A DNA stretch of 64,000 nt from Natronobacterium haloterrestre (GTDB lineage: Archaea; Halobacteriota; Halobacteria; Halobacteriales; Natrialbaceae), in the NCBI RefSeq assembly GCF_900112205.1, contig NZ_FOKW01000013.1:1-64000 (forward strand), in the 5' to 3' direction. Position 1 is the stretch's first letter. The number at the start of each line of letters is the position of its first letter. The position numbers and the translations under genes are program-made. The notes beneath the pieces were generated by a model that searched no databases, was not told the origin of the DNA, and worked only from the letters and a program-made list of their open reading frames with translations. Below are positions 34,491-51,793 of the stretch, piece by piece.

Positions 34491-34509
34491 CCATCCAGTT
34501 TCTGGATGG
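34491..34509. terminator. hairpin crossing the left attachment site
   Basis: CCATCCAG and CTGGATGG pair perfectly around a 3-base loop. In the uninfected chromosome it would lie directly 3' of the CAU tRNA, so it may have been the native tRNA terminator or processing signal. The right arm contains the first bases of attL. Confidence 0.55.
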
Positions 34510-34519
34510 GCCCTGACGG
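34505..34519. repeat. attL, 15-bp direct repeat
   Basis: GATGGGCCCTGACGG is identical to 51794-51808, inside the 3' end of the CAU tRNA. The bases immediately outside the match differ on both sides, giving an exact 15-base core. Together they define the provirus ends. The integrase gene begins 49 bases inside this site. Confidence 0.9.
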
Positions 34520-34567
34520 GACTGGACTCCTGCAATAGCGCTAATTGCGAATTTCCGTGGAACATGG

Positions 34568-35602
34568 TTACAGACTGGGAAGGTAGTCTCGGCGCTGTTC
34601 GGCTTTCTCACGGTCGTTACGGCGGTCATAGTGCCGATCGAGAATGTCGTCACTTGCATCGAGACGGTCGCCGACGACTCGGCGCGGTACGTCCTCGCGA
34701 CGGTAGGCCGTCACCCGACCGCTTCGGACGTCGTGAGGTGAGCGAGACGACGGACACTTGCTCGCCTCGGCGTAGTTGGTCGCCTCACAGTTCGATGGAT
34801 CACGGTCGTGCGGACACTCCGCACCACGCCAACAAGGCCGAGTAACTCCGTACAGAGTATCCCGAATCGTGGAGATAGCCGGACGACCGTTACTCGTCGT
34901 CAAGAGCGGCTCTCGGCCGTGATCATCCGTCACGTCCTTCCGCGGACCATTGATGTAATCCTGTAACACACCGGCAACGAGTCCGCTGATACTGTTCCAC
35001 CGTTCGCCTTTCTTGCCGTTTTTCAGCGGCGTATCCGTTTCTGGCCGGTGTACGAACTGCAGACCCGGATTTTCCTCGAGGTCACAGTCGCGAAGATCGA
35101 GCGAACGAAGGCCGCCCGCACGTGCGCCGGTGTGCCACAGCAGTAGCACCGTGACGTGCCGCCGTGAAGCGTACTTGTATCGCTCCAGGTAGTCGAGGAT
35201 GTCGACGACTCGATCCGGCTCGAGCGTCGTATCGCTTACTCCCTCGCCACCGGAGACCGTCGGAAGCGGGACCTTCGTGAACAGGTCCTCCGGAACAGCA
35301 TCGATGTCCGCACAGAACCGAAGGAATGCACGCAGCGTCGCAAGTTGACCCCGGAGGGTGATCGTCGTGACGGGCTCGCGCCCTTCACCGTTACCCTCCC
35401 GTCGCCAGACGCGGTAGCCGTACAGATCACGCCCCGTGAGGTCGTTTAGGTTCTCGATTTCCTCCTCGTCACACCACTGTTTGAACGCCTCAAGGCGGTA
35501 GATGTGCGACGGGATCGTCTGTTCGCTCAACTCGTCGCGGCGGCCCTCGATGTACATGTCGACGGCCCGCTCGGGAGAGATTGGCTCGAGCCCATCGGTC
35601 AT
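34568..35602 (-). CDS. int: SNJ2-type tyrosine integrase
   Basis: A 344-residue site-specific recombinase. An N-terminal SAM-like core-binding domain (residues 10-105) is followed by a catalytic domain with R161 in HTGARAGGLR, a likely lysine in TPLKNGKKGER (K194), H290 and R293 in SPHDVRSG, and the nucleophile Y325 in DRHYDRR. A cysteine cluster between residues 257 and 283 (PCWRGAEC, NC, SKC) looks like an inserted zinc site and is familiar from haloarchaeal integrases. It should recombine the 15-base att core. Its ATG overlaps the stop of a small upstream frame by four bases. Confidence 0.9.
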   Translation of the reverse strand: MTDGLEPISPERAVDMYIEGRRDELSEQTIPSHIYRLEAFKQWCDEEEIENLNDLTGRDLYGYRVWRREGNGEGREPVTTITLRGQLATLRAFLRFCADIDAVPEDLFTKVPLPTVSGGEGVSDTTLEPDRVVDILDYLERYKYASRRHVTVLLLWHTGARAGGLRSLDLRDCDLEENPGLQFVHRPETDTPLKNGKKGERWNSISGLVAGVLQDYINGPRKDVTDDHGREPLLTTSNGRPAISTIRDTLYGVTRPCWRGAECPHDRDPSNCEATNYAEASKCPSSRSPHDVRSGRVTAYRREDVPRRVVGDRLDASDDILDRHYDRRNDREKAEQRRDYLPSL

Positions 35603-35706
35603 GCCGATCCCTCCACTGAATCGACAGGGTTCGACTCCGAAACGCGCGTATCGCTGTGGTTACAGAATCCGGTACTCTTACCGTGGATGCGTGCTAGTCG
35701 TGACAT
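35599..35706 (-). CDS. possible small gene coupled to int
   Basis: A 35-residue frame ending with ATGA overlap on the integrase start. An in-frame GTG at 35736 would make 45 residues, adding a HEC motif that pairs with a later CNH (possible zinc site). SNJ2-type integrase operons are reported to contain small accessory genes, but they sit differently and no similarity can be confirmed. The overlap is the main support. Confidence 0.35.
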   Translation of the reverse strand: MSRLARIHGKSTGFCNHSDTRVSESNPVDSVEGSA

Positions 35707-35834
35707 GGTCTCACACTCGTGGGACCGCGGACTCACCGTGCGCGCCACTGTGTAGGAGCTGGAGGCGCGCGCGGCTGCTGTCCGTCGGCTAACTGACTCG
35801 TTTCGACTATGCGCCCTTAGTCTCTGGAGGGCCG

Positions 35835-35926
35835 TTTCCGATATTTCCGAAATCAGTCGTTTGCGATGAATTTCACCGCTAACGACGCTAACAGTCCGTC
35901 TTTCCGATTTCCGAAATTGCTTCCGA
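35835..35926. promoter_or_regulatory. five TTCCGA boxes, candidate operator or integrase arm sites
   Basis: TTTCCGA-type boxes begin at 35835, 35844, 35901, 35908 and about 35921, mostly same-strand, in two clusters. They lie between the integrase and the divergent winged-helix gene, the usual place for a switch operator. The whole gap 35737-36247 holds these boxes, the hairpin at 36019-36043 and AT-rich promoter sequence (for example CTTAAAT near 36148). I see no gene there. Confidence 0.5.
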
Positions 35927-36018
35927 AAACGGTACTCGAGGCCGTGGGCGGTGGGCCGTAGGCCGATCGCTCCGATCGAACGGGGACCTTTTTCTCCCCG
36001 CAGGTTGCGTCTTTGCAT

Positions 36019-36043
36019 GCTTCCGTACCTTGGATACGGAAGC
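36019..36043. promoter_or_regulatory. 9-bp inverted repeat, 7-base loop
   Basis: GCTTCCGTA and TACGGAAGC are perfect complements. The arms repeat the TTCCG core of the nearby boxes in both orientations, as expected of an operator bound by a dimer. A terminator role is less likely since no T run follows. Confidence 0.5.
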
Positions 36044-36247
36044 CAGCGGGCCGGTGCCCCCACACCGGGTCCGCGTTTCTCTCGAGGACCCGACCGGGAC
36101 AGCGGCGGGTCCGTCTGGCTTCCGTTAGGACTCCGACTAGAGCGATACAACTTAAATCTATGCAATAGAACTTGCACAAGTAGTAATTAACATGCAGGAC
36201 AGAAACTCATCGGTGCGACTAAGAAAAGATCAACGGAATACGGGGGT

Positions 36248-36553
36248 ATGCGTCCCCGGGTGCCGTGGATGAACGAAGTTGACGATGCGGTTCTCGAGTT
36301 CCTTCAGGAGCTCGAGATTGACGGGCAACCGGTGGCACTCAAACCCGGGGCGGTTCACTACAATCTCGTCGAAGAGTTCGGCATGGTCGACCGAAGTTTG
36401 AGTACGTTTTCGCGTCGAATGGACGTTTTAGCTGATCACGGGCTATTAGAGAAAACGGAAGATGGGAAGGGATCGCCCTACCGGATCACCGAGAAGGGGT
36501 GGGCGTATCTCGAAGGCGATCTCGACGCTGAAGAACTCACAGACGAAGGATAG
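36248..36553 (+). CDS. winged-helix repressor candidate
   Basis: A 101-residue winged-helix protein. The opening MRPRVPWMNEVDDAVLEFLQ is standard for haloarchaeal proviral and chromosomal regulators of this kind. Helix-turn-helix is AVHYNLVEEFGMVDRSLSTF, and the wing is KTEDGKGSPYRITEKGWAYL. Position and divergence from int fit a lysogeny repressor acting on the boxes at 35835-36043. I chose ATG 36248 because the family starts there; the Met at 36269 is the alternative. It ends one base before the stop of the convergent small gene. Confidence 0.82.
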   Translation: MRPRVPWMNEVDDAVLEFLQELEIDGQPVALKPGAVHYNLVEEFGMVDRSLSTFSRRMDVLADHGLLEKTEDGKGSPYRITEKGWAYLEGDLDAEELTDEG

Positions 36554-36742
36554 TTACTGCCCACTATCCATCTCGAGTAGTTTCACCGTCCATTCCCCGT
36601 CCCCTTCGTAGTTGACATGGGCGTGATGCTCGCCGTCGAGCGCTCCATCCTCGTCAAGGATATCCTCGAGGACGAGATCATCCTTTGGAATGGTCACACC
36701 GGTCGATCCGCCACCGACTTCCTGCAGTTTTCGAATCGCCAT
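36554..36742 (-). CDS. AbrB/MazE-like small protein
   Basis: A 62-residue protein starting IRKLQEVGGGSTGVTIPKDD, which is the swapped-hairpin N-terminal pattern of SpoVT/AbrB-type DNA-binding or antitoxin proteins. The middle is acidic and the end has EGDGEWTVKLLEMDS. There is no visible toxin next to it. It is convergent with the repressor candidate (adjacent stops), so it may be an independent regulator in the switch region. Confidence 0.65.
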   Translation of the reverse strand: MAIRKLQEVGGGSTGVTIPKDDLVLEDILDEDGALDGEHHAHVNYEGDGEWTVKLLEMDSGQ

Positions 36743-36835
36743 ACAGCGGGCGGCAACCCGTTACCTATTATAGCTAATGACTACCCAAATAGCTGAGATA
36801 TTAGGCGGATCGGGTTCGACCGCTGGCCGTTGCAT

Positions 36836-37258
36836 ATGGCAACTGCAAACCCGTTCAGCGGTATGAAAAATCACGAGGGCGTCGACCTGATCGACGCCGT
36901 GCTCGCGCCCCTGTTCGTCGCGGCGACGCTGTCGATGTCGGGGCTGGGCACGATTGGTATCGACAACCCGATTTCGTTCTACCTGTCGGACGTCCTGTAC
37001 GCGGCTGCAGGCACCGAAATCACGTGGGGATTCATCTTCACGATCATCATCGTCGGGATCGCCTGGTTCTCTAACGAGAGCCGCGATTTCAACGACTTCT
37101 CCCAGGAACAAGCGGCCGTCGTCGGCGGGATGGTCCTGATGAATCTCGCGGTGGCGCTCGTCCCGGCCGTCGCAGCTGCGATGGCCGCGTACTGGTACGC
37201 CGGCGTCCTGCTGATCACGATCAACGGCGCGGGCTACTACCTGATCGCGTACTACTGA
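36836..37258 (+). CDS. VP3-like small membrane virion protein
   Basis: A 140-residue protein with four hydrophobic helices: residues about 20-40 ([17 protein letters not shown]), 60-85 ([16 protein letters not shown]), 100-120 ([19 protein letters not shown]), and the last ([17 protein letters not shown]). Pleolipoviruses have an internal membrane protein of this size and topology directly before the spike. I infer that role from place and form. ATG at 36836 is preferred over the TTG six bases upstream. TTATAG near 36769 is a plausible TATA element for the structural operon. Confidence 0.78.
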
Positions 37259-37268
37259 GGTGGCCACA

Positions 37269-38042
37269 ATGAGGAATTCTTTCACGACGCTACTCCGGGC
37301 AGAGACGGCCTACACGGTCCTAATCGCATGGGTTACGATCAGCCTCTGTCTTGGCTTCGGGATCGCCGGGATCGCGAGCGCCCAGGACAGCGGCCTCGAG
37401 GAGATCGAGAACACGACGATCGAGACGACGTCGAACACGTCCTACGTCGAGTTGGACATCGAGTTCGCCGAAACGATGGAGAACACCTCGGAGGAGACCG
37501 TCGAGTTCACGACGTACACCGAGGCGGCCTACCAGGACGACGGCACGGAGCTGTCCGACTACGACGAGACCCTGAGCGGGACGACCCTCACCGTCAACGA
37601 GGACGTCCACGATCACGCGACCTACGACGTCGAACTGGACTCGAGCGCGACGACCGTCACCGTCGACGGGACCGCGTTCGCCGACGACGGGACGGTTGAC
37701 CTCTCGGGGGAAACCAGCGACTCGCTCACCTCCGACGACACCGTGCTCTCGATCTCGGTCACCGCGGACACGATCATCACCGACACCGTGACCGGGACGC
37801 CGAACGACACGGTGACGAACGAGTACCAACTGAGCGACACCGGGTTTGAATCCGGTGTCGAGTACCGCGCGCTCGTCGAGGTCGGGAACGCGAACAACAT
37901 CGCGAGCGGCTACGTCGCGCCCGACGACGCCACGATCGGCGGTGGCTTCTTCGACGGCGCGGACGGCTCGCCTGGCTTCGGCGTCGGCGTCGCGATCGCG
38001 GCGCTGGCAACCGCCGGGGTGCTCGCACGGAGGCGATCGTAA
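37269..38042 (+). CDS. surface protein with PGF-CTERM-like anchor
   Basis: A 257-residue protein with a signal helix (residues 12-33) probably cut after IASAQ. A Thr/Asp/Glu-rich beta domain has several N-x-S/T sites for glycosylation. The end SPGFGVGVAIAALATAGV then LARRRS is PGF motif, hydrophobic helix and basic tail, as in archaeosortase A substrates. It is a second surface protein beside the spike, as in viruses that split the spike into two (HGPV-1, recalled). It ends one base into the spike ATG. Confidence 0.75.
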   Translation: MRNSFTTLLRAETAYTVLIAWVTISLCLGFGIAGIASAQDSGLEEIENTTIETTSNTSYVELDIEFAETMENTSEETVEFTTYTEAAYQDDGTELSDYDETLSGTTLTVNEDVHDHATYDVELDSSATTVTVDGTAFADDGTVDLSGETSDSLTSDDTVLSISVTADTIITDTVTGTPNDTVTNEYQLSDTGFESGVEYRALVEVGNANNIASGYVAPDDATIGGGFFDGADGSPGFGVGVAIAALATAGVLARRRS

Positions 38043-40639
38043 TGTCGGCCGGATCGGACGGCTCCAGCCCACAGCCCACGCTCGAGGGGGGTAACTTAGA
38101 TTTCTCGAGGCGTGAGGCGCTGCGGCTGGCTGCTCTGACCGGCGCGGCGGCGATCGGCGGCTCGGCGGCCTCGAGCGGGACCGTCGCGGCGGTCCCAACC
38201 TGCACGTCGAACGTCGGCGTTTGCGGTGAGGCCTACGACGGCACGAACCCGGACACGACGTCGGCCGGGTTCTTCGCTGGCGACGCCACCATGTCGGGAG
38301 TCAACGACGATCCCTCGGCCGACGAAGTTGCCCTACACGGGCAAGCTACCACGGCGCGAGCGTGGTGGGACGACGTTGCGACGATCCTGCTCGACAACCG
38401 GCTCGAGGACATGAGCATGGTGTCGAATATCGCCGCTCGTGCCGAGATTGCTGACGCCTATCAGGACGGGGCGGGATCGAATGCGGCCTACGATGCTGCC
38501 CTTGCCGGGATCGATGATCAGCATTCGGTCCTGTATCGGAATACGGTGGCGACGAAAGTCGCGAACCTCTCGCAACTGTCGGCGATCTCGGACGTCTGTC
38601 GATCGACCGACGGCCTGAACGATCGGTTCGTGAGTTGGGCACCGGCGAACGACAACTACAGCGGTTCCGGTTCGATCGTCCAAAGCGGCACTTACATCGC
38701 GCCGGACCTCACGGCCTCGTCGATCACGCTGCCGAACGGCGACACCTACGACGTTGACGTGCCTGAGTTTCATGCTGAATGGGATAACGGCGACACGCTG
38801 ACGGTCAAGCTGGACGACGACCTGCTCGGTCACTACGATGCCGATGCCGAGGAATTCGTTGACGTCCCGACTGACAACGGCGAGATGGTCACGTTCCGCG
38901 CTGCGTGTGTCGTCAACAGCGTTTCCGATGCCGACCTCGAGAGCAAAACAGTCGGCGTGCTCGCGGACGCTGCTGGCGTTCTCAACGATATTGAGACCAA
39001 TGCGGCCGCCGTGAAAGGGAACTACGATCAACAACTGGTAGACGACCTCTACGCGGCGATGGACGACGGCACGATCTCTCCGTCGGATATTCGCGGCGTT
39101 GAGGGCATGGCTGGCCATCTGAGCGGGTCAACTGACGCGACGGATAGCCGATTTCAGATGGCACTACTCGCACAACTCGGCCTCGATCGCTCCGACCTCT
39201 CGAGCGTTGCGTCGATGACGCTCGAGTACACGGGCGTTACCGACCGCACGCTCGAACGCGATTCGGCTGGTAAGGTTTCGAATCTCGACTATGCGACTCT
39301 CCACGAGGCCGAGCCGATCGAGGGCCAGTTGTTCGCTGATCTCCGAGAAAACACTACGCTATCCGCCGGAGAGACGTACCAGTCTGGTACGAACGTGTAC
39401 CTCAACGGATCCGCCTACGACCCGGTCGGCGGCGAACGCTTGACGAACTCTGACGGCGGGACTGGATATGCGCTTCACCGGCCGTCGAATACTGCGTGGA
39501 CCTGTAGCGGCACTTCGCTCTATAAGTTCGACGTCATTGATGGCACCAGTGAACACCTGTGGGAGGAAAGCAGCGACACTGGCGATATGAGCCATGCTGC
39601 CATCGGCTCTGCTCGGGACGTGCTCGTTGCTGCGTCCGGCTACGACAGTGTTGGTGTGTTCGGTATCGACCCGGAAACTGGCGATGAGCTTTGGAACTTC
39701 AACCCGGAGAGCAACACCAAAACCCTCGCTTTGGACGCTGAGGGTACAGTCTTGGCACATGGAGACTCCCTCGGCAATGTCGCGTGTTATGACGTCGACT
39801 CTGAGGACTACTCAAAACGGTGGAGTAATGGCCCGTTCGACGTGACTAACGGCGTCGACGTCGTTGACGGTGTCGTCTACGCTGTCGGTAAGAACGGTGA
39901 CGTCAAAGCCTACGACCTTGCGGACGGCACCGAACTCTGGAGCAGCAGCTACTCCAGCGACGGCTATTCGGCTCTTGCTGCCGACTACGCCGGTAACGAG
40001 GTTTACGCTGGCTATTCTTCCGGTGACGTGGTCGCGCTCGAGGCCGGGTCCGGTAGTGAGAACTGGAGTGTGTCGACGAACGTCAGTGATGCCGGGTCGA
40101 TGATCCTCGATGCCCGAGGGCATCTGTGGTTCAACGACCGGAATGGTCTCCTCGTGCAGATCGACACTGCTGATGGGACTATCGTCCGCGAGCACGACGT
40201 CGGTGATTGGGCGAAGGACATGGCAACGACCGACCCGCGTGCTGTCAATGGCATGGTCTTCAACGCGATCGCCTACGACGGTCCCTCCGGCGAGTCGATC
40301 TCGCTCAACTACGGCTCTGTCACGGTTCAGTCGTTGACTGATCAGGACGGCAACGAACTCGAGGACGACTACGAGGCTGACTGGGACCGTCCCGAGCACG
40401 ACACGGTCGAGATCGAGGAATATCAGCAGGAACTCGAGAAGTGGTCCACCGAGTACGAAAACGCGCTCGAGGACGAAGACGACGACAGTACCGACGACGG
40501 CGACGACTGGTTAGGCCTCCCGTCGTTCGGATCGTTCGAGTCAGGCGACCTCGCGGGCCTCGCGATTATCGGCGGGATATTGATGGTCATTATCGGCATT
40601 GCGACGGACTACATCCCGTTCGTCGGGGGTGGACGATGA
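38042..40639 (+). CDS. pleolipovirus-type spike with PQQ-like beta-propeller
   Basis: An 865-residue type-I membrane protein. A Tat-like signal (FSRREALRLAALTGAAAIG) is followed by a helical and beta N-terminal region to about residue 430, which is the part that resembles pleolipovirus spikes. Residues about 475-760 are repeats such as VVYAVGKNGDVKAYDLADGT, EVYAGYSSGDVVALEAGSG and VGVFGIDPETGDELWNF, typical of a PQQ/BamB-type propeller. A charged helix (EEYQQELEKWSTEYENAL) and a C-terminal membrane helix end it. The propeller-coding part is visibly less GC-rich than the ends. It should be the receptor-binding and fusion protein. The four-base ATGA overlap links it to the next gene. Confidence 0.8.
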   Translation: MSAGSDGSSPQPTLEGGNLDFSRREALRLAALTGAAAIGGSAASSGTVAAVPTCTSNVGVCGEAYDGTNPDTTSAGFFAGDATMSGVNDDPSADEVALHGQATTARAWWDDVATILLDNRLEDMSMVSNIAARAEIADAYQDGAGSNAAYDAALAGIDDQHSVLYRNTVATKVANLSQLSAISDVCRSTDGLNDRFVSWAPANDNYSGSGSIVQSGTYIAPDLTASSITLPNGDTYDVDVPEFHAEWDNGDTLTVKLDDDLLGHYDADAEEFVDVPTDNGEMVTFRAACVVNSVSDADLESKTVGVLADAAGVLNDIETNAAAVKGNYDQQLVDDLYAAMDDGTISPSDIRGVEGMAGHLSGSTDATDSRFQMALLAQLGLDRSDLSSVASMTLEYTGVTDRTLERDSAGKVSNLDYATLHEAEPIEGQLFADLRENTTLSAGETYQSGTNVYLNGSAYDPVGGERLTNSDGGTGYALHRPSNTAWTCSGTSLYKFDVIDGTSEHLWEESSDTGDMSHAAIGSARDVLVAASGYDSVGVFGIDPETGDELWNFNPESNTKTLALDAEGTVLAHGDSLGNVACYDVDSEDYSKRWSNGPFDVTNGVDVVDGVVYAVGKNGDVKAYDLADGTELWSSSYSSDGYSALAADYAGNEVYAGYSSGDVVALEAGSGSENWSVSTNVSDAGSMILDARGHLWFNDRNGLLVQIDTADGTIVREHDVGDWAKDMATTDPRAVNGMVFNAIAYDGPSGESISLNYGSVTVQSLTDQDGNELEDDYEADWDRPEHDTVEIEEYQQELEKWSTEYENALEDEDDDSTDDGDDWLGLPSFGSFESGDLAGLAIIGGILMVIIGIATDYIPFVGGGR

Positions 40640-41205
40640 GACGGAAAGTCGTACTCCTGGCGGTCGTCACGGCGGTTCTGGCGATGGGCATGGGCGCGGC
40701 GGCGGGCCCGGTCGCAGCACAGGAGAACGCGACCGACCAGGAGGCCAGCGACGAGCTCAACGAGACGGTCGCCGAAACCCAGGACGACTACTTGCAGGAG
40801 ATCGACAGCGACACCCGGATCACGAACTGGGAGTACCGGCCGGGGATGTTCACGATCACGCTCGAGGCCGACGCCGAGACGAAAGTCAGCATGACCGAGG
40901 CGGGCGACTTCGAGCAGGGCACGGGTTCGTTCAACTACGACGAGGTAGAGTTGGACGAAGGCACCAACACGATCACGTTCGCGGTCACCGACCGCGAAGG
41001 CGCGGGCGTCGCGATCGCGACGCGGCGGTCACTCCAGCAGGGGACCGGCGCGTTCGTCTCGGTCGGGCAGGTCGAACGGAACCCGTTCCGTCACTTCGGC
41101 GGTGAGTCGGGGCTGTTCTCCGGTGTGATCCTGACGACGGCGCTGGCGGGGCTCTCGGCCGCCTACGTCGTTCGCAGCGAAGACAGCGGGGTGATCGAGG
41201 CATGA
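40636..41205 (+). CDS. exported membrane-anchored virion protein candidate
   Basis: A 189-residue protein with a signal helix (RRKVVLLAVVTAVLAMGMGA, cut after VAAQE), a beta-rich exterior part with EYRPGMFTITLEADAETKVS, and a second hydrophobic helix near the end (GVILTTALAGLSAAYVV). Pleolipoviruses encode a protein of this form between the spike and the next membrane protein (ORF6 equivalent). Role unknown, probably structural or assembly. It overlaps both neighbours by ATGA. Confidence 0.7.
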   Translation: MRRKVVLLAVVTAVLAMGMGAAAGPVAAQENATDQEASDELNETVAETQDDYLQEIDSDTRITNWEYRPGMFTITLEADAETKVSMTEAGDFEQGTGSFNYDEVELDEGTNTITFAVTDREGAGVAIATRRSLQQGTGAFVSVGQVERNPFRHFGGESGLFSGVILTTALAGLSAAYVVRSEDSGVIEA

Positions 41206-42050
41206 GCGAGACCAGCGGCACCTTCGGCGGCTGGAGCGATCGGCTCACCTACGTCGTCGCCGAAGCCCAGCTACTCGTCGCGGGCGTGCTCATGTCGATC
41301 GCCGTCGCGTTGATCTGGTTCCGCCCGGAACTGCCGGGGATCCCGCCCATCGTGCACGGGTGGATCGCCGCGATCTTCCTGCTCGGCCCACCGTTGACGG
41401 GGATGTTCATCACCGGCGCGCGGAAGCTCCGAAACCGGAACATGGTGACCGTTCACCACATCAACGGCGTCGAAGACGTCCGCGAGAAATACTACGTCGA
41501 GCCCGGCGTCTGGGACGACAAGGAGATCGTCGGCCCGTCGCCGTACACCGTCAACAACGGCGGCGCTTTCGAGGTGCGCGAGTTCGACTGGCACCCGGAT
41601 CAGGGCGACGACGGCACCCTGATCGTCACCGGCTGCTACATGAGCGAGATGGCCGACTCGAAACTCGTCACCACGAAGGCCATGCTCGAGGACGTCCACG
41701 GCGATCTCATCGACGTCTATCTCGCGTACAACCGCCTGCGCGGGCGAATCTCCAAGATGGGGCTCGAGATCCAGCGCGACGTCGTCAACCAGGAGGCCGA
41801 GGCTGACGAGCGCGGGTTGATGAACCCGAAGACGACCGTCAAGGACCGGTTCGAAAGTGCCGAGAAGGACGCCGAGGAGAAGGCAACGGAGGACATTCAG
41901 GACGTCGACGGCTACGAGGGCGAGTACATCGGCGAGCACGGCGAGCACGCGCCTCCAGCCCGCCCGCGCCCGAACCAGTTGTACGACACCGTCGACGGCG
42001 TCGATCCGATGGAGATGGCGACGACCGACGGGGGGCAGAACGATGGATAG
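41202..42050 (+). CDS. conserved pleolipovirus membrane protein (ORF7-like)
   Basis: A 282-residue protein with two membrane helices in the first 75 residues (AEAQLLVAGVLMSIAVALIW and GWIAAIFLLGPPLTGMFI), then a cytoplasmic domain containing RNMVTVHHINGVEDVREKYY and a helical, charged C-terminal part with TTVKDRFESAEKDAEEKATE. Position between the spike block and the ATPase matches a conserved but uncharacterised pleolipovirus gene. It probably works with the ATPase in assembly at the membrane. Overlaps the ATPase start by eight bases. Confidence 0.72.
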   Translation: MSETSGTFGGWSDRLTYVVAEAQLLVAGVLMSIAVALIWFRPELPGIPPIVHGWIAAIFLLGPPLTGMFITGARKLRNRNMVTVHHINGVEDVREKYYVEPGVWDDKEIVGPSPYTVNNGGAFEVREFDWHPDQGDDGTLIVTGCYMSEMADSKLVTTKAMLEDVHGDLIDVYLAYNRLRGRISKMGLEIQRDVVNQEAEADERGLMNPKTTVKDRFESAEKDAEEKATEDIQDVDGYEGEYIGEHGEHAPPARPRPNQLYDTVDGVDPMEMATTDGGQNDG

Positions 42051-43263
42051 GCGGACCGAGTACCGGAAGAACGGCAAGCGGTTGATGACCGACGGCGGCC
42101 GCGAGCAGGACAACTACACCGTCGGCGGCTTTCGCGAGTGGCAGGACGGCAACCTCGAGCGGGACCCGGACGAGGCACTCCGGCACACGGGGTTCGTCCG
42201 CGACGAGCAGGTCGATCGCCAGCTCGCAATGCGTGCGGTCCACCACGATCCCGATCGGTGGGAGAGCAAACCCGCCAAGGACTACATGGCCGTCGGGAAG
42301 AACCGCGACATCCTTCGCGCCGAAGGCAACGAAACCGCCCGCAATGCCCTCGAGAACGGGGACACGCTCACGCTGAAACACTACATCGGCGACCCATCCC
42401 AGGAGGCCGACCTCGCGGGGATCAAGGCGGTCACCCGCCTGCAGGAGATCGTCGCCGGGCCCGCGCCGGTGATCGTCATCTTGGGCGAGATGGGCGCGGG
42501 GAAGACCGACTTCGCTGGGCTGTGTGGGCAACTCCGCGAGCGGTGGGTCGACGGCGATCTCCTCGTCGGCAGCAACATCCGCACCTTAGACCGGATCGAT
42601 CGATGGGTCCGCGACGACGGCAGCGTCGAGGACGGCTGGATTCCGAACTACCCGCTCCTCGAGGAGTGGGTCCAGCAAGACGGAGATCCCGTCGACAACC
42701 CCCAGCAGCCGAAACTGTTCATCGGCGACGAGTTCTCGAGTAACGCCAGCGGGACGGGTGCGGACGGTCACAAGGTCCGCCAGAAGATGGGGCCGCTCGT
42801 CTACAAGATCCGCAAGTACGGCGGTGCACTCATCTACATCGCACACGGTGAATCGTCGATCCACCCGATGCTCTGGCGCGTCGGCACGATCATCAAGAAG
42901 AAGTCCAAGAAACGTGCGATCGTTGCAGACCGTGTTTCCGGTGGAAAGCTCCAGGACGTCGACCCCCGCCCGCTCGAAGGGATTCCACCGACGGACTGGA
43001 ACTTCAACACGAAGGACGAGGCCGACTGGAGCTGGGAAGCGCCGAGCAGCGACGACAAGAACGACGATCCGATCGCCGAGGAGGACGTCAAACGCGTCGC
43101 CGCCTGGACGATGGAAGAGTGTCGACGCCAGGGAATGTCGGCCCGCGAAACCGCCGAATTCGTTCCCTACAGCCACGCTACTGTCTCGAACTGGTGGAAA
43201 GAGATCGATGAAGGGGGCGAAAAGGCCGACTGGGTTAACACCGTCGAGCAGGTGATTGCATGA
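42043..43263 (+). CDS. VP8-like P-loop ATPase
   Basis: A 406-residue P-loop NTPase. Walker A is ILGEMGAGKTDFAG (about residues 146-159), Walker B is PKLFIGDEFSSNAS (about 223), and YGGALIYIAHGESSIHP is a sensor-like segment. Residues 370-395 read as a helix-turn-helix (MSARETAEFVPYSHATVSNW). In pleolipoviruses the corresponding protein is the last gene of the conserved block and is thought to help genome packaging or assembly. The ATG at 42043 is chosen because it starts inside the stop of the previous gene. Confidence 0.82.
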   Translation: MDRRTEYRKNGKRLMTDGGREQDNYTVGGFREWQDGNLERDPDEALRHTGFVRDEQVDRQLAMRAVHHDPDRWESKPAKDYMAVGKNRDILRAEGNETARNALENGDTLTLKHYIGDPSQEADLAGIKAVTRLQEIVAGPAPVIVILGEMGAGKTDFAGLCGQLRERWVDGDLLVGSNIRTLDRIDRWVRDDGSVEDGWIPNYPLLEEWVQQDGDPVDNPQQPKLFIGDEFSSNASGTGADGHKVRQKMGPLVYKIRKYGGALIYIAHGESSIHPMLWRVGTIIKKKSKKRAIVADRVSGGKLQDVDPRPLEGIPPTDWNFNTKDEADWSWEAPSSDDKNDDPIAEEDVKRVAAWTMEECRRQGMSARETAEFVPYSHATVSNWWKEIDEGGEKADWVNTVEQVIA

Positions 43264-43383
43264 CGGCGTCGGGGTGTCAACCCGTAAAGCGGAAGCGCCC
43301 CCCGTTTACGTATGGGCGGCGCGGCCCGCCAGGGCCGCGACGCCTCGGCCCATCGCGACGCTCGAGCGACAGCCAGCGGAGGA

Positions 43384-43391
43384 GTATATAT
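43384..43391 (+). promoter_or_regulatory. TATA box for the downstream nuclease-like gene
   Basis: TATATATA lies 27 to 34 bases before the GTG at 43418. This is the normal archaeal TATA-to-start distance for a leaderless transcript and decides the start used below. Confidence 0.6.
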
Positions 43392-43417
43392 AGCGGCGCG
43401 CGACGCGCGTGGTCGGT

Positions 43418-43801
43418 GTGAATCGATCGAAACGCGCGAACCACTTCGGGACGATCTGCGAAAAGCGGATGGCCCGAAAGCGTCGGTTCGACCTCGAGCG
43501 GGCCAGCTGGCACGACGCTCGATTCGGGAACGGAACTCCCGTCGAAATCAAGAGCACCATGCTCGAGCATAGCGATGGCCAGCCAGGGAATTTCAAGGTC
43601 TACCGGGAGTATCATGACAAGCTACGGCGGGCCGAGGGCTGGTACTGTTTCGTCGTCTACCGACCACACGGGCGATCGGGGCTGACAGTCCTGAAGGATA
43701 AGATGGTACGTGCCTGTGATATTCCCCTTCTCCGGTGGCACGGCGGCGGCGATCACCGCGGCACCGATCAAGCAAAGATCTCCATTAGCGACATATTCTG
43801 A
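43418..43801 (+). CDS. PD-(D/E)XK-like nuclease fold protein
   Basis: A 127-residue protein. RRFDLERASWHDARFGNGTP is followed by VEIKST, a D...ExK arrangement of PD-(D/E)XK nucleases, then NFKVYREYHDKLRRAEGWYCFVVY. It resembles the 172-residue protein at 50112-50630 over the ExK core and the following helix-strand. GTG at 43418 fits the TATA box; GTG 43409 is the alternative. It may act in genome maturation, recombination or as a Holliday-junction-type resolvase. No target is known. Confidence 0.6.
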   Translation: MNRSKRANHFGTICEKRMARKRRFDLERASWHDARFGNGTPVEIKSTMLEHSDGQPGNFKVYREYHDKLRRAEGWYCFVVYRPHGRSGLTVLKDKMVRACDIPLLRWHGGGDHRGTDQAKISISDIF

Positions 43802-44147
43802 GGTTTTAGACGAGTCTGAATCTCGGTGAATTACAGCAATCCCTATCACGATCAGGCCAATTGCTAACGGTGACTCAAACAATCATGCTCGAGGCAATAC
43901 ACTCTCCTCTCGGTTTCAGGGGCTACAAGCCATTTTACCTTCCCTTTCAGCTATTCGCTCTCCCGAATGTTCAATAGTCCTGAGGCTCTGTGTCCTACTA
44001 CCTCGAGTCGTGTGCACGCGCTCGCCGCTCGAGCGTAGGCACCTCGCGTGGTGGTCGTTCGACTCGAGACGGATAATACGGCCACATGGCCGGGCCGCCG
44101 TCGAAGCGGCCCCAATCACAGCACCACACCGCCTTTCAAGGCGGTTT
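43802..44147. other. gene-free stretch with hairpins
   Basis: No supported gene. The last 60 bases hold two hairpins: GGGCCGC/GCGGCCC at 44092-44112 with a 7-base loop, and the terminator-like hairpin at 44128-44148. CTCGAGTCG and its complement CGACTCGAG also occur near 44002 and 44069. An open frame on the minus strand reaching 43882 is antisense to the nuclease-like gene and has no independent support. Confidence 0.5.
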
Positions 44148-44148
44148 T
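44128..44148 (+). terminator. hairpin with T run
   Basis: ACCGCCTT and AAGGCGGT pair across two bases and are followed by TTTT on the plus strand. It would end transcripts from the nuclease-like gene, or act as a two-way barrier because the convergent small membrane gene stops at the same point. Confidence 0.55.
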
Positions 44149-44378
44149 CATTGCTCGGTACTCGCCAATGGTAGCAAAATAAGTCCGAACAGCACCGTCA
44201 GCACCGCCAAGCTCGCCCAGATCGTTCGGACGTACCCGTCGGGCACGTAGCCAGCGGCTTCGGCGATCACGTAGCCCAGATACAGGAGTGACACGATGAC
44301 GGCCGCGTTATATATTCGCCACGCCCATCGAACACAGTGGTAGGCAAGAACCTTCACGCGGTGGCCGTCACTGTTCAT
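44148..44378 (-). CDS. small two-helix membrane protein
   Basis: A 76-residue protein with two hydrophobic helices (AAVIVSLLYLGYVIAEAAGY and IWASLAVLTVLFGLILLPLA). The first 20 residues are basic (VKVLAYHCVRWAWR). It could be an accessory virion, holin-like or superinfection-exclusion protein, but nothing beyond topology is seen. A longer frame starting at 44453 is possible. The next gene upstream on the same strand is the pilin, 126 bases away. Confidence 0.5.
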   Translation of the reverse strand: MNSDGHRVKVLAYHCVRWAWRIYNAAVIVSLLYLGYVIAEAAGYVPDGYVRTIWASLAVLTVLFGLILLPLASTEQ

Positions 44379-44504
44379 ATTGGTGTAGTTGGATTTCTCA
44401 TACTTCACTGCACTGACCGTTGAACGGTGACTCGAGTCGTAGCGACAGGACAATGGAATGTGGCGTTCAGTGGCTCAAAAGAAATCGAAACTGGTCAGCG
44501 GTGG

Positions 44505-45047
44505 TTAGCTGGTCGTTTCGTATTCGTCGAGGATCTGTCCTTCGCCGTCTCCGACCCAGATGAGTTGGATAGTGTCACCTGGGTTGTAGTGGATATTTTC
44601 GCTATAGTCGGTTGAGTCTCCACCATGGTGGTCTGCAGCAGCATCCAGATCTGCGTATAGGGTGATTGAGTCGCCAGCACCAACTTCACTACCGTCCCAG
44701 TCACCTACTGGTATCTCCTCCGTACCACCTGCCATGAAGTATCCGGTGCCTGCTAGCCCGGAAACTCGCTCATCATCCATCTCGGAGGTAGCAATCAGCA
44801 GGTTGTCTGTATCAATGCTTTCACCACCGGAGATACTAATCTCAACATACTTCCCACTGACATTCTCGTCATAATTAAACTGTGTGGACGGTGGCTGGTC
44901 GCCCATATCGCCCATGTCGAGAACGAAGGCAGCGATCACGGCGGCCAAAATTACAGTAATCGCAACCATCAAAATTACCCCAATGACGGGAGAAACTGCT
45001 CTTTCTTCCTCATCTCCGAGCAACATTGCGCCAAGTGCTTTGAACAT
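44505..45047 (-). CDS. type IV pilin, proviral copy A
   Basis: A 180-residue archaeal type IV pilin. The lead [20 protein letters not shown] has a PibD prepilin-peptidase site before AVSPVIG. The following helix ([20 protein letters not shown]) forms the pilus core, and the rest is an exterior domain with acidic strands and no cysteine. The first 70 codons are nearly identical in DNA to pilin B (45070-45567), while the exterior domains differ. Both lie in the provirus between membrane and replication genes, which is unusual, and they are co-oriented with 22 bases between them. Confidence 0.88.
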   Translation of the reverse strand: MFKALGAMLLGDEEERAVSPVIGVILMVAITVILAAVIAAFVLDMGDMGDQPPSTQFNYDENVSGKYVEISISGGESIDTDNLLIATSEMDDERVSGLAGTGYFMAGGTEEIPVGDWDGSEVGAGDSITLYADLDAAADHHGGDSTDYSENIHYNPGDTIQLIWVGDGEGQILDEYETTS

Positions 45048-45069
45048 TGTTTGTTAGTATGCCTGGTTA

Positions 45070-45567
45070 TTAGCTAGTGTCGGTAGTTTCGTATTCGTCA
45101 AGGACCTGTCCTTCACCATCTCCTTCCCAGATGATCTGGACAGTTTCTCCCTCGAAAGTATCTACGCTATCATCAATCTCAATTTCGTCACCGGCGCTAA
45201 TGGCATCGGCATCAGTCCAGTCATTACTGCTATCTACTCCGGATGGTGCACTACTACTGTATTGGGAAACAGGATTATCCCACTCCGGACTGGTATCACC
45301 GCTGAAATCGAGATAGAGATTGTCTGGGTCAATATCTTCTCCACCAGTCACAGTAATCGTCACGCTCGAACCCACATCTTCATCCCAACTGAACTGCGTG
45401 GACGGCGGTTGGTCACCCATATCGCCCATGTCAAGTACGAAGGCAGCGATCACAGCAGCCAAAATTACAGTAATCGCAACCATCAAAATTACGCCTATAA
45501 CAGGGCTCACAGCGCGTTCTTCGTCCGATCCGACCAGTTTGTCGCGAATCTGTTTTCCGTCAAACAT
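45070..45567 (-). CDS. type IV pilin, proviral copy B
   Basis: A 165-residue archaeal type IV pilin paralogous to copy A. The lead [20 protein letters not shown] and core helix match it almost exactly, then the exterior domain diverges ([20 protein letters not shown] and [20 protein letters not shown]). Both proteins end with a shared EGDGEGQ/L DEYETT sequence, so exchange at both ends with variation in the middle is likely. ATG at 45567; the upstream TATA-like sequence on the minus strand is at about 45729-45739. It is first in a two-gene transcript with copy A. Confidence 0.88.
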
Positions 45568-45716
45568 GGTGTATCTTTGTGCACCACTTTCAGCCCGGCC
45601 GGAAGGTCTTTGCCCCCACACAGGGTACACCGACCCGCGCGGGGATTGGGGATCCAAGCATGACCGACCCCGCCACACCCTTCCCGCCGTCCGATTTTGG
45701 TGCTGGTAACAACCAG
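45507..45716 (-). CDS. possible zinc-finger frame upstream of the pilins
   Basis: A minus-strand frame overlaps the pilin B start by 61 bases and contains GCGGVGHAW and RCTLCGGKD, a possible Cys-His/CxxC zinc site. No good start codon exists (TTG at 45716) and no Shine-Dalgarno is seen. It could be a real short gene or coincidence. The remaining stretch 45717-45910 has a TATA-like ACATATATTTA on the plus strand (45729-45739) and nothing else. Confidence 0.25.
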
Positions 45717-45910
45717 TTGACCGGGAGTACATATATTTACCCCATCCTCCAACACCTTCGAAGAAACGACTGTCTGCAAGGGTTTCAACTCTGATAATTA
45801 GGCGGGCGTAGAACCGTTACAGCACCAGCTTGAAGCCACGCTGGCTGGCGATTATCAAATCAGAAACCGTATCGGAACGACCATGATTCTCGCGTGCTGA
45901 TGCCATCGAT

Positions 45911-46705
45911 ATGACTGAGGACGACCGGTTCGTGATGCCCAAGGAACTCGCGCGAACCTACGACAGCGGCTACTACGAGGACGCCGCCGATATCCTCGAG
46001 CAGTACGACCGCGCAACTGAGTACGCACGCAAGCACGACGCTGGCTCGAGCGCGACCGCGTCGGCCTTGGATCTCCCCCGGTCCCGCTTGCGGACCTGGA
46101 TCGACGACGGCGGGAAACCTGACCCGGTCCATGCCGTGCATACGGCGATCGACTACGGCTGGTGCGAGGTCGAATACGACGATCCGGAGTTTACGGCATT
46201 GAACACGCTCGTCGCGAACGTGTTTTCGGGCGGGTCGATCGCCAACCACCATTACCGACCGTCGTTCGCGCTGAACCACCGTGGGGCGGACAGTCACGTG
46301 ATCGACGCGCTCGAGCTTTCGGGCGCACCGTACGAGGTCGTCGAACGCGACCCCGATCGGGCCGACGAAGCTCGCCCGACTGACGATGGGACCGTACTCG
46401 GTCGCGTCCTCGCGGTCCTCGGTGCGCCGGTCGGCCCGAAAGCCGAGCAGCACCTCGAGTTGCCGTCGTATCTCGAGGACGCGCCGGCAGAAGTCCGCGA
46501 AACGTTCGTGTACGCCTATCTCGAAAATCGGGCAACCGAACACGAGGGCAAGGATACGCTGCATATTCAGGAGGAACGAAATCAGGACTACCTCGTGGCG
46601 CTGGCAAATCTGCTCGCGGACGTAGCCGACGGCGAGGTCTCGGTCGGCGATCGGCATATCGTGATTTCGGCCGACGCAGCTCGTAATCTCGGAACTGTTC
46701 GTTAA
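45911..46705 (+). CDS. HTH protein with LAGLIDADG-like C-terminal half
   Basis: A 264-residue protein. Residues about 25-65 hold a helix-turn-helix-like block with ATASALDLPRSRLRTWIDDG. The C-terminal half, GAPVGPKAEQHLELPSYLED through TFVYAYLENRATEH and YLVALANLLADVADG, has the helix spacing of a LAGLIDADG/homing-like domain, though the canonical acidic residue is not clear. Proteins like this occur in haloviruses and may be DNA-binding regulators. I am unsure of the domain. Position is between pilin and replication modules, opposite strand to both. Confidence 0.55.
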   Translation: MTEDDRFVMPKELARTYDSGYYEDAADILEQYDRATEYARKHDAGSSATASALDLPRSRLRTWIDDGGKPDPVHAVHTAIDYGWCEVEYDDPEFTALNTLVANVFSGGSIANHHYRPSFALNHRGADSHVIDALELSGAPYEVVERDPDRADEARPTDDGTVLGRVLAVLGAPVGPKAEQHLELPSYLEDAPAEVRETFVYAYLENRATEHEGKDTLHIQEERNQDYLVALANLLADVADGEVSVGDRHIVISADAARNLGTVR

Positions 46706-46767
46706 ACGTCGGTTCAAATCGATCGGTTTCGGGGCATCGATAACACTTTGCGCGAAAAACAACGTCG

Positions 46768-47022
46768 CTATTCTCGCTCGACGGTTACGGACCTCTCGAC
46801 CTCGAAACTCGTGACTCGAGTCGAGAGCGTTTCGGCGATCTCCTGGCGCTGCTCGTGAGTGAGGTCGTCCCGCTCGAGGACCTGGCGTGCAGCTGCAACC
46901 AGCCGGGGCACGTCTTCGCAAGCACTCACCACGGCTTTCGTCTTGTTACAGTCGTAGAAGTCAGCTGCTCGCTCGATCGCGTCCTCCCGGTAAGCATAGT
47001 CGCCGTCGGTTCGAATTCGCAT
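46768..47022 (-). CDS. DUF7692-like small protein
   Basis: An 84-residue soluble protein. MRIRTDGDYAYREDAIERAA followed by DFYDCNKTKAVVSACEDVPR resembles the ribbon-helix-helix-like pattern in the haloarchaeal family I recall as DUF7692. The second half is helical (LVAAARQVLERDDLTHEQRQ). Such proteins are probably DNA-binding or antitoxin-like, with no partner visible here. Start at ATG 47022. The 12-base inverted repeat at 47151-47187 lies upstream and could be its operator. Confidence 0.6.
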   Translation of the reverse strand: MRIRTDGDYAYREDAIERAADFYDCNKTKAVVSACEDVPRLVAAARQVLERDDLTHEQRQEIAETLSTRVTSFEVERSVTVERE

Positions 47023-47150
47023 ACTCGTACACACGACCCCCGAAATCCTAGTTTTTTCGACTCACTGAACCGGCCCATTCAGCCCAAAACGGGGGTGGTT
47101 CTGTCACTCTGTTAGAGGAGTCACCGGGTTCGTCGCGACGATCGGCGAGC

Positions 47151-47187
47151 AATATGCACACGGCGCTGCTCGGCTCGTGTGCATATT
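47151..47187. repeat. 12-bp inverted repeat
   Basis: AATATGCACACG at 47151-47162 and CGTGTGCATATT at 47176-47187 are perfect complements with a 13-base spacer. The arms are AT-rich at their outer ends. It is between two minus-strand genes and may be an operator, an origin element or a terminator (no T run seen). Confidence 0.75.
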
Positions 47188-47269
47188 CGGGAAACCGATT
47201 TCGTCGACGTGCGACCCCAGAGGGAGAGACCGAGGAAATCACAAGGTGATATTTGAGGCCGAATAGAAA

Positions 47270-47875
47270 CTACTCTTCTCCAAACTCGGCCTTTGCATCC
47301 CTCACTATTTCTCCAAGGAGCTTCAAGTAGTACTGTAACTCCTCCTCAGCATCGACGATTTCTTCATGGACATCATCAGAATTATCATCGATGTAGAGCC
47401 CTGTTTCTACATCGATTTCATCAGGTAATTCGATATAGAATTTCTCTACCGACCCATCTGGCTGTTCAACTTTAAATCCTGAGCCACCATACTGATCTCC
47501 AATAAAAGCCGAATCTGCCCATGGAGGCATAATTCGGCTCAATTCAGCCGTATTGAGCCGATTCACTTTGGTATAGTTTGAAATATCGGGACCATCTGAT
47601 CCTTTTAGGATTCGGTTACGAAGATCATCCATCTTTTGAGCCACTTCATCGCTTTTCAGAACTTCTTGTCGTTCAGTATACCAGCTGTCAAAATCCTTAT
47701 TAGTTTTCCCTCTAAGCCTCTGTAATACAAAGGTCACGGATCGACCGAACGAAACAGCGTTTCGCAACCCGATCAATTTCTGTTCCCCATCAGCAGACTG
47801 GTATTGCTTGAACCCGGCATAAGCAGCCTTCAAATTGTATTCTGCTTCATCAAGGATTTGATCAGGGTCGTCCAT
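47270..47875 (-). CDS. AT-rich cargo gene of unknown function
   Basis: A 201-residue soluble, helical protein. NLKAAYAGFKQYQSADGEQK is followed by GLRNAVSFGRSVTFVLQRLR, and the C-terminal half has VDAEEELQYYLKLLGEIVRD. No family is recognised. Base composition is clearly lower in GC than its neighbours (many A/T-ending codons), and it stands alone between repeat-rich sequences. This is the pattern of a recently acquired cargo gene, for instance a defence or exclusion factor, but no such function is shown. Confidence 0.65.
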   Translation of the reverse strand: MDDPDQILDEAEYNLKAAYAGFKQYQSADGEQKLIGLRNAVSFGRSVTFVLQRLRGKTNKDFDSWYTERQEVLKSDEVAQKMDDLRNRILKGSDGPDISNYTKVNRLNTAELSRIMPPWADSAFIGDQYGGSGFKVEQPDGSVEKFYIELPDEIDVETGLYIDDNSDDVHEEIVDAEEELQYYLKLLGEIVRDAKAEFGEE

Positions 47876-48004
47876 ATGACAACATGATACTGAAATATGA
47901 TAATCCCCCTGTATCTCTCCTAAGAGTACCTACCCCCGTTTCGTATGCATCAATTGGAGATTTTCGCGCGAAGGTGGGGGAGGGGTGCTGTAATTTTTTG
48001 GCGC

Positions 48005-48053
48005 TGTCGCCTTGGCGACACCCGGCAAGGGGTGTTTCGCGCGAAGCGCGAAA
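48005..48053. repeat. three stacked hairpins, candidate replication origin
   Basis: Successive hairpins are TGTCGCC/GGCGACA at 48005-48020 (2-base loop), CACCC/GGGTG at 48019-48034, and TTTCGCG/CGCGAAA at 48035-48053 (5-base loop). A T run precedes them. The gap 47876-48199 contains only these and a GC-rich stretch. Proximity to the Rep candidate suggests an origin; an alternative is a strong terminator downstream of the Rep stop. Confidence 0.55.
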
Positions 48054-48199
48054 CCGACCCGCAGCCGCGCGGCGCGATCGAGCCGCCGACCCCGTCCTCG
48101 AGGGCGCGACTACAACCAGAGTTGAACAGTCAACGATCTATTACAATCTGAATTGCCGAAAAGAAGTCCGCGAATAGTGTTGCCACTACCGAGATCGGT

Positions 48200-49819
48200 T
48201 CAGCGATCGGCGACTGCGCCGACGAACCCGACCTTGGTACCGCCGCCGGGAGTCTTCCAGGACATCTCGGTGCGCCGGAGGACCGCCGGATCGTTGCCGG
48301 ACTTGCGCCACTTGTCGATCGCCTCGGCGGCGATCGCCTGGACGTTCTCGAAACTCGTCGATTTCAGTTCGGAAAGGATCGCGTCGATCCGCACGCGTCT
48401 AGGCTCGCCCTCCTGGTCGTACTCGATCTCAGCGCCGTTCTCGGCGAGCCACTGCTGGAACGGCGACGATTCGGCGATGTGGTCCGCTAACCCCATCACG
48501 TGCTGGATGCGATCGGCGAAACTCTCGATCGCGTACTCCGCCGACTCGACGAGCGCGCGTAGTTCCTCCTGGTACTTCCGAGCGCGGAACGAAATCTCGC
48601 CCTGGTCCAGCTCGAGGATCTCGTCCAGGTCCTCGATCGCCCGGTAGATCGTCGCCGGGTGCTTGCCCAGCTGGTCGGCGAGGTCGTCGACGTTCCCCCC
48701 GCCGTCGGTCGCGACCGTTTCCGTCACTTCGCGGGCGGTCTCGCCCATGTCCCGCAGCGTCGTCATCAACAGGTGGTCCGTCTTCGCCTCGAGGCGCGGT
48801 GTGGGATCGTCGTAGAGTTCGACCGGCTCGTCGCGGGCGGCCGCATCGAAGTGATCGTCCGCGACGTAGACGTTGTTCCCGTTCGGACCGAGCGGGATGT
48901 CCTCCCAGTGCAGCGCGTTCAGTAGTGTTTCTTCGATCTGCTCGGTCACTTCGTGCCGGTCGGCCCACGCCCATGCCTCGTTGTCGTTCATCGACTTGTT
49001 CACCAGGACCTCGACCTTCGGGTGATAGGACGGGTGATCCTTCGAGACCGCGTCTGGATCTGCCAGCTGGTAGATCTCGAACTTTCGTCCGTAGGTGTGT
49101 CCGGGGAGGAGTTCTTCCGCCGACCGCGGGTTGAGAAACAGCCGGTTCTGGTGGTTCACGACCTCCCGGTTATCGAGGTGGAGTTCCGCCTTCACTCCCT
49201 CGAGGTCCGACAGGTGATGGACGACTTTCTGCAGAACGCCTGCAGACGCGAGCTTCTCTGCCCATTCACGACGGATACGGACGTACCGTTCGTACGCCCA
49301 CATCCGACTCGCCGAGTGGGGTTCCGTTCGGAAGTACTCCGAGTGAATCCGCTCGCCCGCGTGCTCGAAGATCGCCGCGAAAAACTCCGGCAGCAACTCG
49401 AGGCCGCGTTCGGCTTCGATGTTGCTGGTGTGGAATTCGACGTCCACTCCGTCGACCTCACCGACCTGATTCTCCCACGGGAGATTCACCGGCTCACCGG
49501 TCTCCCAGTGGCGCATGTTCGGGAATCGCGGGGAGATGTTGTAGGACGCTTTTCGCTCGCCGCGCCCACGGCCGCGAATGTCCCACTCGTAGAGCCGCTC
49601 GGCGTTGATACCGTCAGAGAGTCGCGGCGCGAACCCCGACTTGCTGTAACTGACCTCGAGGTGCCAGAGCTCGCCGTCGACCTCGACGTCCAGTTCCAGG
49701 TATCCCTCGAACGGCGGGCCGAGCATCACCGACGACAGGGCATCGTACGGGCCGCGTCCCCAGTCGGGCCACTTCCAGCGCCCCTCGATCTCGTGAGGCG
49801 TCGTCTCGACCTGGGACAC
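48200..49819 (-). CDS. winged-helix replication protein candidate
   Basis: A 539-residue protein without rolling-circle or polymerase motifs. The N-terminal 370 residues are mixed (WKWPDWGRGPYDALSSVMLG, then beta-rich blocks such as GYLELDVEVDGELWHLEVSY). Residues about 374-400 are a clear winged-helix element (NVDDLADQLGKHPATIYRAI). The end, MSWKTPGGGTKVGFVGAVAD, is conserved-looking. Betapleolipoviruses lack other Rep types and have a large winged-helix protein in this place (recalled). Closest haloarchaeal label is DUF7845, from memory. It is last in a tightly overlapping operon. Confidence 0.65.
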   Translation of the reverse strand: MSQVETTPHEIEGRWKWPDWGRGPYDALSSVMLGPPFEGYLELDVEVDGELWHLEVSYSKSGFAPRLSDGINAERLYEWDIRGRGRGERKASYNISPRFPNMRHWETGEPVNLPWENQVGEVDGVDVEFHTSNIEAERGLELLPEFFAAIFEHAGERIHSEYFRTEPHSASRMWAYERYVRIRREWAEKLASAGVLQKVVHHLSDLEGVKAELHLDNREVVNHQNRLFLNPRSAEELLPGHTYGRKFEIYQLADPDAVSKDHPSYHPKVEVLVNKSMNDNEAWAWADRHEVTEQIEETLLNALHWEDIPLGPNGNNVYVADDHFDAAARDEPVELYDDPTPRLEAKTDHLLMTTLRDMGETAREVTETVATDGGGNVDDLADQLGKHPATIYRAIEDLDEILELDQGEISFRARKYQEELRALVESAEYAIESFADRIQHVMGLADHIAESSPFQQWLAENGAEIEYDQEGEPRRVRIDAILSELKSTSFENVQAIAAEAIDKWRKSGNDPAVLRRTEMSWKTPGGGTKVGFVGAVADR

Positions 49820-49821
49820 GG

Positions 49822-51627: not shown

Positions 51628-51754
51628 CCCGATTCGGCTACGAAATTCGCGTGCAGGCGGCGACCCGAAACCAGTAGCTGGTTCGGTTCAGGTTCGAAAC
51701 CCCGGATCGCCGAAGGCGAAAATCGGTGCGTCAGGTTGTCGACGACCCGGTATT

Positions 51755-51775: not shown

Positions 51776-51793
51776 CTAACCGCGTAGTTTTTC

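Follow-up and report, generated by a model that had tools for sequence, protein, structure and literature searches.

How does a pleolipovirus spike come to carry a domain of the kind found in cellular beta-propellers, and what might such a domain do on a viral membrane fusogen? The question is raised by an open reading frame (ORF) at 38042-40639 of the DNA analysed here, the first 64,000 nucleotides of Natronobacterium haloterrestre contig NZ_FOKW01000013.1, which we call the window. How pleolipoviruses recognise their hosts, and how their unusual monomeric fusogen is triggered, is an open question. We think it probable that the ORF encodes a betapleolipovirus-like spike whose propeller was gained once, has since been replaced as a cassette, and acts as a second, exchangeable module for recognition of the host surface.

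A pleolipovirus spike with a beta-propeller insert

By homology to solved and isolated spikes, the match to phrog_2231 and its place in a conserved gene block, the ORF is a VP4-like pleolipovirus spike. The phrog_2231 match runs from end to end of the protein (residues 9-863, E 1.8e-45), and a profile built from 20 spike heads of the clade described below found the solved spike VP5 of HRPV-2 (6qgi) at E 8.3e-8. When phage records were searched with tblastn, the spike VP13 of the betapleolipovirus SNJ2 was matched at E 7e-21 over residues 116-464 only, which is the head part; at this sensitivity these records showed no homologous spike besides SNJ2 and none with a propeller in the spike. No relative was recovered when viral contigs were scanned with the spike itself, with three alignments, with a DNA motif or with two propeller queries, and the scan of genome contigs recovered one. 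Sequence homology and gene position are joined by an export signal and a membrane anchor. A twin-arginine (Tat) signal, SRREAL, can be read from the sequence near residue 22 of the 865-amino-acid (aa) ORF, as can a hydrophobic stretch at residues ~837-857, and a helix at 839-855 in a low-confidence full-length model coincides with the transmembrane helix. The original prediction, made from the letters alone, had proposed a pleolipovirus-type spike at the spike position of the block, with a Tat-like signal and a C-terminal membrane helix, and in all of this it was borne out.

Comparison with relatives places the insert between two strands, one that has GETYxxG at its end and, following it, GSVTVQSLTDQDGNE. 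Loop length at this site is bimodal, 14-41 aa in the short spikes and 302-338 aa in the others, which agrees with the earlier proposal that the propeller is an insertion. In some distant short spikes the head match ends early, so that their loop lengths are rough and some are negative; an outlying value of 122 (L109) likewise stems from an early-ending head match and reflects a different insert. L109 and L090, both short spikes, have an extra beta-rich insert of ~100 aa, immunoglobulin-like in appearance, elsewhere in the C-terminal arm, from which it follows that this arm accepts other inserts. As judged from the alignments, the propeller is part of the C-terminal arm that carries the membrane anchor, where only one more strand and a helix follow it closely, and is not an extension of the N2 tip. 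The description of the propeller as the outer half of the spike is therefore not supported, and the repeat region, proposed at residues 475-760, is propeller-like in sequence with its bounds shifted to ~450-745.

The Pfam family PQQ_2 (PF13360), for which the cut-off is 27.6 bits, matches residues 522-715 at E 8e-15 and 55.5 bits (range 55.5-60), and BamB chains were matched by phmmer at E ~1e-9, as the predicted PQQ/BamB-like character would have it; the repeat motif GDVKAYDLADGTELW named at the time stands at about residues 619-633. PQQ_2 was found in 18 of 21 clade propellers (E <= 0.01). Among PDB entries, the propeller profile matches propellers of the WD40, PQQ, BamB and archaeal surface-layer types. 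In the clade consensus DG(S)ExW recurs seven times, once every 39-42 residues, which points to seven blades, unlike the eight of BamB and the PQQ dehydrogenases. The repeats are degenerate, with 20-30% identity and no invariant column, and PQQ dehydrogenase models gave partial and weak matches to the generic repeat. From its sequence, the domain is best described as a seven-repeat relative of the PQQ_2/BamB-like fold and not as a BamB.

A single-sequence model of the propeller from a Natrinema thermotolerans relative (L052) contains 26 strands and no helix (mean predicted local distance difference test score, pLDDT, 60; predicted template modelling score 0.49). In a Foldseek search its best match was BamB (E 2.7e-12), and 1l0q, a propeller from an archaeal surface layer, was matched at E 8e-12. 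The propeller fold is thus well supported by sequence and moderately by the relative's model, and we infer that the window protein forms a closed propeller. The propeller model also matches a free-standing PQQ-repeat protein of Haloarcula californiae tailed virus 2 (BFVD R4T7S6).

Distribution and history of propeller spikes

A spike-like match was present in 161 of the 392 genomes of the order, and propeller spikes numbered 22, in 21 genomes with four family codes. In a tree built on the head region only, all 22 form one group nested among short spikes (ultrafast bootstrap 93, Shimodaira-Hasegawa-like approximate likelihood ratio test 88), with one change in 92% of bootstrap trees; a quick tree of 64 rows gave the group a support of 94. 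Because the propeller spikes form one clade and share the insertion site, a single gain of the propeller is the simplest reading of the sequences, with one extra event being possible. In the spike tails of one sub-clade (L008, L011/L023, L013, L018) the strand after the propeller is followed by another insert, which is ~55 aa long and conserved (THVDxQTIADIEALxGTPDSIETIVxEMDEF).

Twin arginines occur in the signal of all 22 propeller spikes, against 2 clear cases in 22 close short spikes. That the Tat signal is a direct consequence of the propeller was considered and rejected, since L017, the nearest short relative, already carries such a signal, as does the short spike L080.

Replacement of the propeller between close proviruses

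Between the proviruses of G055 and G312, the DNA is 90.7% identical up to codon ~449 and 90.5% identical from codon ~784, with nothing alignable between. The spike proteins accordingly have heads at 90% and tails at 84% identity, whereas the propellers stand at 29%, the level of unrelated propellers (mean 27%); N2 is 91% identical although the propeller was replaced. G133 and G201 are 94% identical up to the C-terminal region of the spike, after which nothing can be aligned before the propeller ends. A like pattern of replacement is shown by the two proviruses of a single genome, G244. The propeller appears to behave as a cassette that is swapped wholesale among related viruses, which suggests that it is exchangeable.

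Over all propeller spikes the propeller is the fastest part, with a mean identity of 0.27 against 0.37 for heads. N2 seems to change more slowly in propeller spikes than in short ones at similar N1 divergence: its identity was 0.63-0.70 in two pairs of propeller spikes and 0.40 in a third, compared with 0.35-0.43 in short spikes, the pairs being few and not independent.

A separate mosaic segment was observed between the window and its sister G001, where nucleotides ~38200-38800 of the spike fall to 81-90% DNA identity with flanks at 94-99%. Transfer of the propeller was rejected as an account of this pair, given that similarity in the VP3-like and partner genes upstream equals that in the propeller, the divergence being confined to the N-terminal part.

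Source of the propeller and base composition

A cellular PQQ lipoprotein in the window had been pointed to as a possible kind of source. The gene is present, on the minus strand, although it spans 27070-28344 and not 27070-28305 as first given. Its product is 23% identical to the spike propeller, and other cellular PQQ proteins score higher (~33% identity), so that it was rejected as the donor. The best cellular match of the window propeller exceeds the best viral one (65.5 versus 51.6 bits), the cellular set having been picked with the window protein as query, which favours it. No close donor was found among 125 genomes of the family.

The proposal that the propeller DNA is less GC-rich than both ends of the gene holds weakly. 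Along the window spike, third-position GC content (GC3) runs from 0.81 through 0.76 to 0.68 in successive thirds of the head, and is 0.71 in the propeller and 0.79 in the tail, without a step at the propeller border. GC3 is lower in the propeller than in the head for 19 of 22 spikes (means 0.64 and 0.72). As the fall in the window sets in far ahead of the border, the insertion cannot be dated from base composition, and low GC was rejected as a mark of recent import.

Large plasmid-borne PQQ proteins from Halosolutus and Natronorubrum were also rejected as propeller spikes, no spike head being detected in them (E > 0.05). These membrane proteins of 1175-1260 aa with an N-terminal propeller (L133:6824-10351, Halosolutus gelatinilyticus plasmid; L134:3671-7453, Natronorubrum daqingense plasmid) have a gene for a type IV pilin-like protein and several small hypothetical genes as neighbours, and are possibly a surface protein of another element.

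Proposed function and competing explanations

In the solved spikes the C-terminal domain runs down to the membrane and acts as a shield for the hydrophobic segment at the N terminus, and N2 is the proposed receptor domain, without direct proof (PMC6381117). Fusion by HRPV-6 is triggered by host S-layer extract and needs an S-layer component (PMC8875312), which has not been pinned down (PMC6381117, PMC8875312). According to the explanation we favour, a conserved V-fold-type membrane fusogen would bear the seven-repeat PQQ/WD40-type propeller in a loop of the arm that leads to its C-terminal membrane anchor. This domain would have been acquired once, in the ancestor of a haloarchaeal pleolipovirus clade and probably from the propeller of a cellular surface protein or lipoprotein, and would afterwards have been replaced as a cassette through recombination. 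As a second, exchangeable module it would recognise the host surface (S-layer or glycan), and docking would act on the C-terminal arm, the shield of the hydrophobic segment, so as to license fusion. The sequences show the homology, the insertion site, the seven repeats, the single clade and the abrupt replacement; cellular origin, receptor binding and coupling to fusion are what we infer beyond these. Because a surface domain is swapped between near-identical viruses while the fusogen is conserved, an exchangeable recognition module with predicted S-layer or glycan binding is favoured; a receptor-binding role of the propeller is plausible, and the cassette exchange speaks for it. As for the wider claim, that the whole clade carries its host-recognition part on the fusogen arm as an exchangeable propeller cassette, by which receptor specificity would be replaced in one recombination step with no change to the fusogen or to N2, the presumed receptor tip, we find the case evenly balanced.

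Several points weigh against a swapped recognition module. The propeller sits away from the N2 tip, where receptor binding had been proposed, and the binding and fusion roles of propeller spikes are deduced from their sequences. The propellers of the window and G001 are 99% identical in DNA, and it is at the N-terminal side that these two spikes diverge; variation in the propeller is thus not common to all pairs. Modelling of the full-length window protein by AlphaFold2 with a two-sequence alignment reached a mean pLDDT of 30, and the matches of the L052 model have template modelling scores of ~0.5-0.55, that model being moderate only. Finally, the 125 genomes of the family yielded no donor for any swapped cassette, which leaves some room for very fast divergence instead of replacement.

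Such divergence, by point changes under diversifying selection and without recombination, would fit both the missing donor and the rank of the propellers as the fastest part of the spike. We nevertheless consider it quite improbable, as nucleotide similarity is lost abruptly between flanks that are 90-94% identical in two pairs, and for a propeller to reach the level of unrelated ones beside barely changed flanks implies an implausible rate. The main rival gives the propeller another task, that of a structural spacer or shield: it would adjust how high the spike stands, or how it is oriented, to a particular S-layer geometry, or would protect the fusogen, with N2 binding the receptor. It draws on the proposal that the shape of the C-terminal arm follows host S-layer geometry (PMC10599561) and on the variability of N2, too, among propeller spikes at larger distances. 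A spacer should, however, have no need of wholesale sequence replacement between near-identical viruses, and N2 is conserved where the propeller was replaced; we regard this alternative as unlikely.

Two further possibilities start from the PQQ resemblance. Under the first, a version of the original prediction, a PQQ lipoprotein of the host, similar in kind to the one that the window encodes, was recently inserted as a new outer head; the broad family is the same and cellular matches stand slightly above viral ones, with the query bias noted. An insertion site common to 22 spikes of one clade contradicts a recent date, and the 23% identity, the border without a compositional step and the seven repeats in place of BamB's eight blades tell against such a capture as well, making it very improbable. 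If the propeller were instead an enzyme domain, quinoprotein or glycan-active, modifying the host surface at entry, the family resemblance would be explained, but the matches are to generic repeats, those to PQQ dehydrogenase models are partial and weak, and the seven degenerate repeats have no invariant column; to this we attach scarcely any credence.

Gene block and provirus

The order of the block is intact, running from the VP3-like gene through an extra ORF (37260-38042), the only one between that gene and the spike, to the spike, the ORF6-like and ORF7-like genes and the ATPase (Table 1).

Table 1. Features of the window discussed in the text
Feature	Coordinates	Strand	Basis
PQQ lipoprotein ORF, 424 aa	27070-28344	-	
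Probable provirus	34505..51808		15-bp direct repeat GATGGGCCCTGACGG at 34505 and 51794
Provirus integrase (tyrosine recombinase)	34568..35602	-	PF02899; phrog_1 E 5.6e-23
VP3-like membrane protein	36836..37258	+	phrog_3232 E 1.3e-25; relatives have it at matching position
Partner ORF, signal peptide and PGF-CTERM anchor, abuts spike start codon	37260..38042	+	PF18204, phrog_27362
VP4-like pleolipovirus spike gene, 865 aa, with inserted beta-propeller	38042..40639	+	phrog_2231; clade head profile against 6qgi
Tat signal region, SRREAL	38042..38191	+	Sequence
N1/N2 and first part of C-terminal domain, residues ~51-449	38192..39388	+	Homology to short spikes
Inserted PQQ/WD40-type beta-propeller, seven ~41-aa repeats, residues ~450-745	39389..40276	+	Pfam, alignments, profile matches
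End of C-terminal domain: strand (LNYGSVTVQSLTDQDGNEL), charged helix, linker	40277..40549	+	Homology to short spikes resumes
C-terminal transmembrane helix, residues ~837-857	40550..40612	+	Sequence
ORF6-like conserved protein	40636..41205	+	phrog_1938 E 1.4e-58
ORF7-like conserved membrane protein	41202..42050	+	phrog_3526 E 7.9e-125
Conserved ATPase/NTPase	42043..43263	+	phrog_1979 E 5e-158

A secreted, C-terminally anchored ORF like the partner overlaps or abuts the spike start upstream of 18 of the 22 propeller spikes (the window, L052-L060, L063, L064, L066, L067, L069-L072). It also precedes L017 and L080, the two short spikes that have a Tat signal, and is rare before other short ones (L009, L083, L104). 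The partner may be a second envelope protein or a helper of Tat-type spikes.

The extent of the provirus, 17.3 kb between the copies of GATGGGCCCTGACGG, is tentative and similar to the 17.0 kb of SNJ2. The integrase gene lies just inside the left copy, and the 15-bp repeats are possible att sites.

Comparison with known systems

The literature searched contains no paper linking pleolipoviruses with a beta-propeller domain, co-mentions concerning other viruses or uses, and a large survey of pleolipovirus spikes mentions none; a propeller-bearing pleolipovirus spike is thus without earlier description in that literature. Together with the phage records, which gave the head of SNJ2 and nothing more, this upholds the novelty that had been claimed with respect to characterised spikes. 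The 'abnormally large' spikes of epsilonpleolipoviruses are also enlarged, and are reported to have the usual V-shaped fold with no mention of a propeller (PMC10599561); it is by this description only that they are set apart from the window spike.

VP5 of HRPV-2 and HRPV-6 and VP13 of SNJ2 resemble the window spike in that head and tail are homologous and in having a signal peptide, a membrane helix at the C terminus and the same place in the gene block. Known pleolipovirus spikes are 530-550 aa long with a short loop where the window spike has its propeller of ~300 aa, and SNJ2 and most close short relatives have a Sec-like signal where the window spike has a Tat signal. PQQ_2/BamB-like and WD40 (PF13360) propellers and the archaeal surface-layer YVTN propeller (1l0q) resemble the insert in repeat sequence and predicted all-beta blades; unlike the eight-bladed BamB, the insert has seven repeats and is placed within a viral membrane fusogen.

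Natural pairs of proviruses that differ mainly in the propeller (G055/G312, G133/G201) make the question of host recognition directly testable. If the proposed explanation is true, a viral fusogen would alter its host specificity through the exchange of a cellular-type domain. The attachment proteins HN, H and G of paramyxoviruses use a viral beta-propeller for host attachment and trigger fusion. The likeness to the window spike is one of analogy only, as the paramyxovirus propeller is separate from the fusogen, six-bladed and unrelated in sequence.
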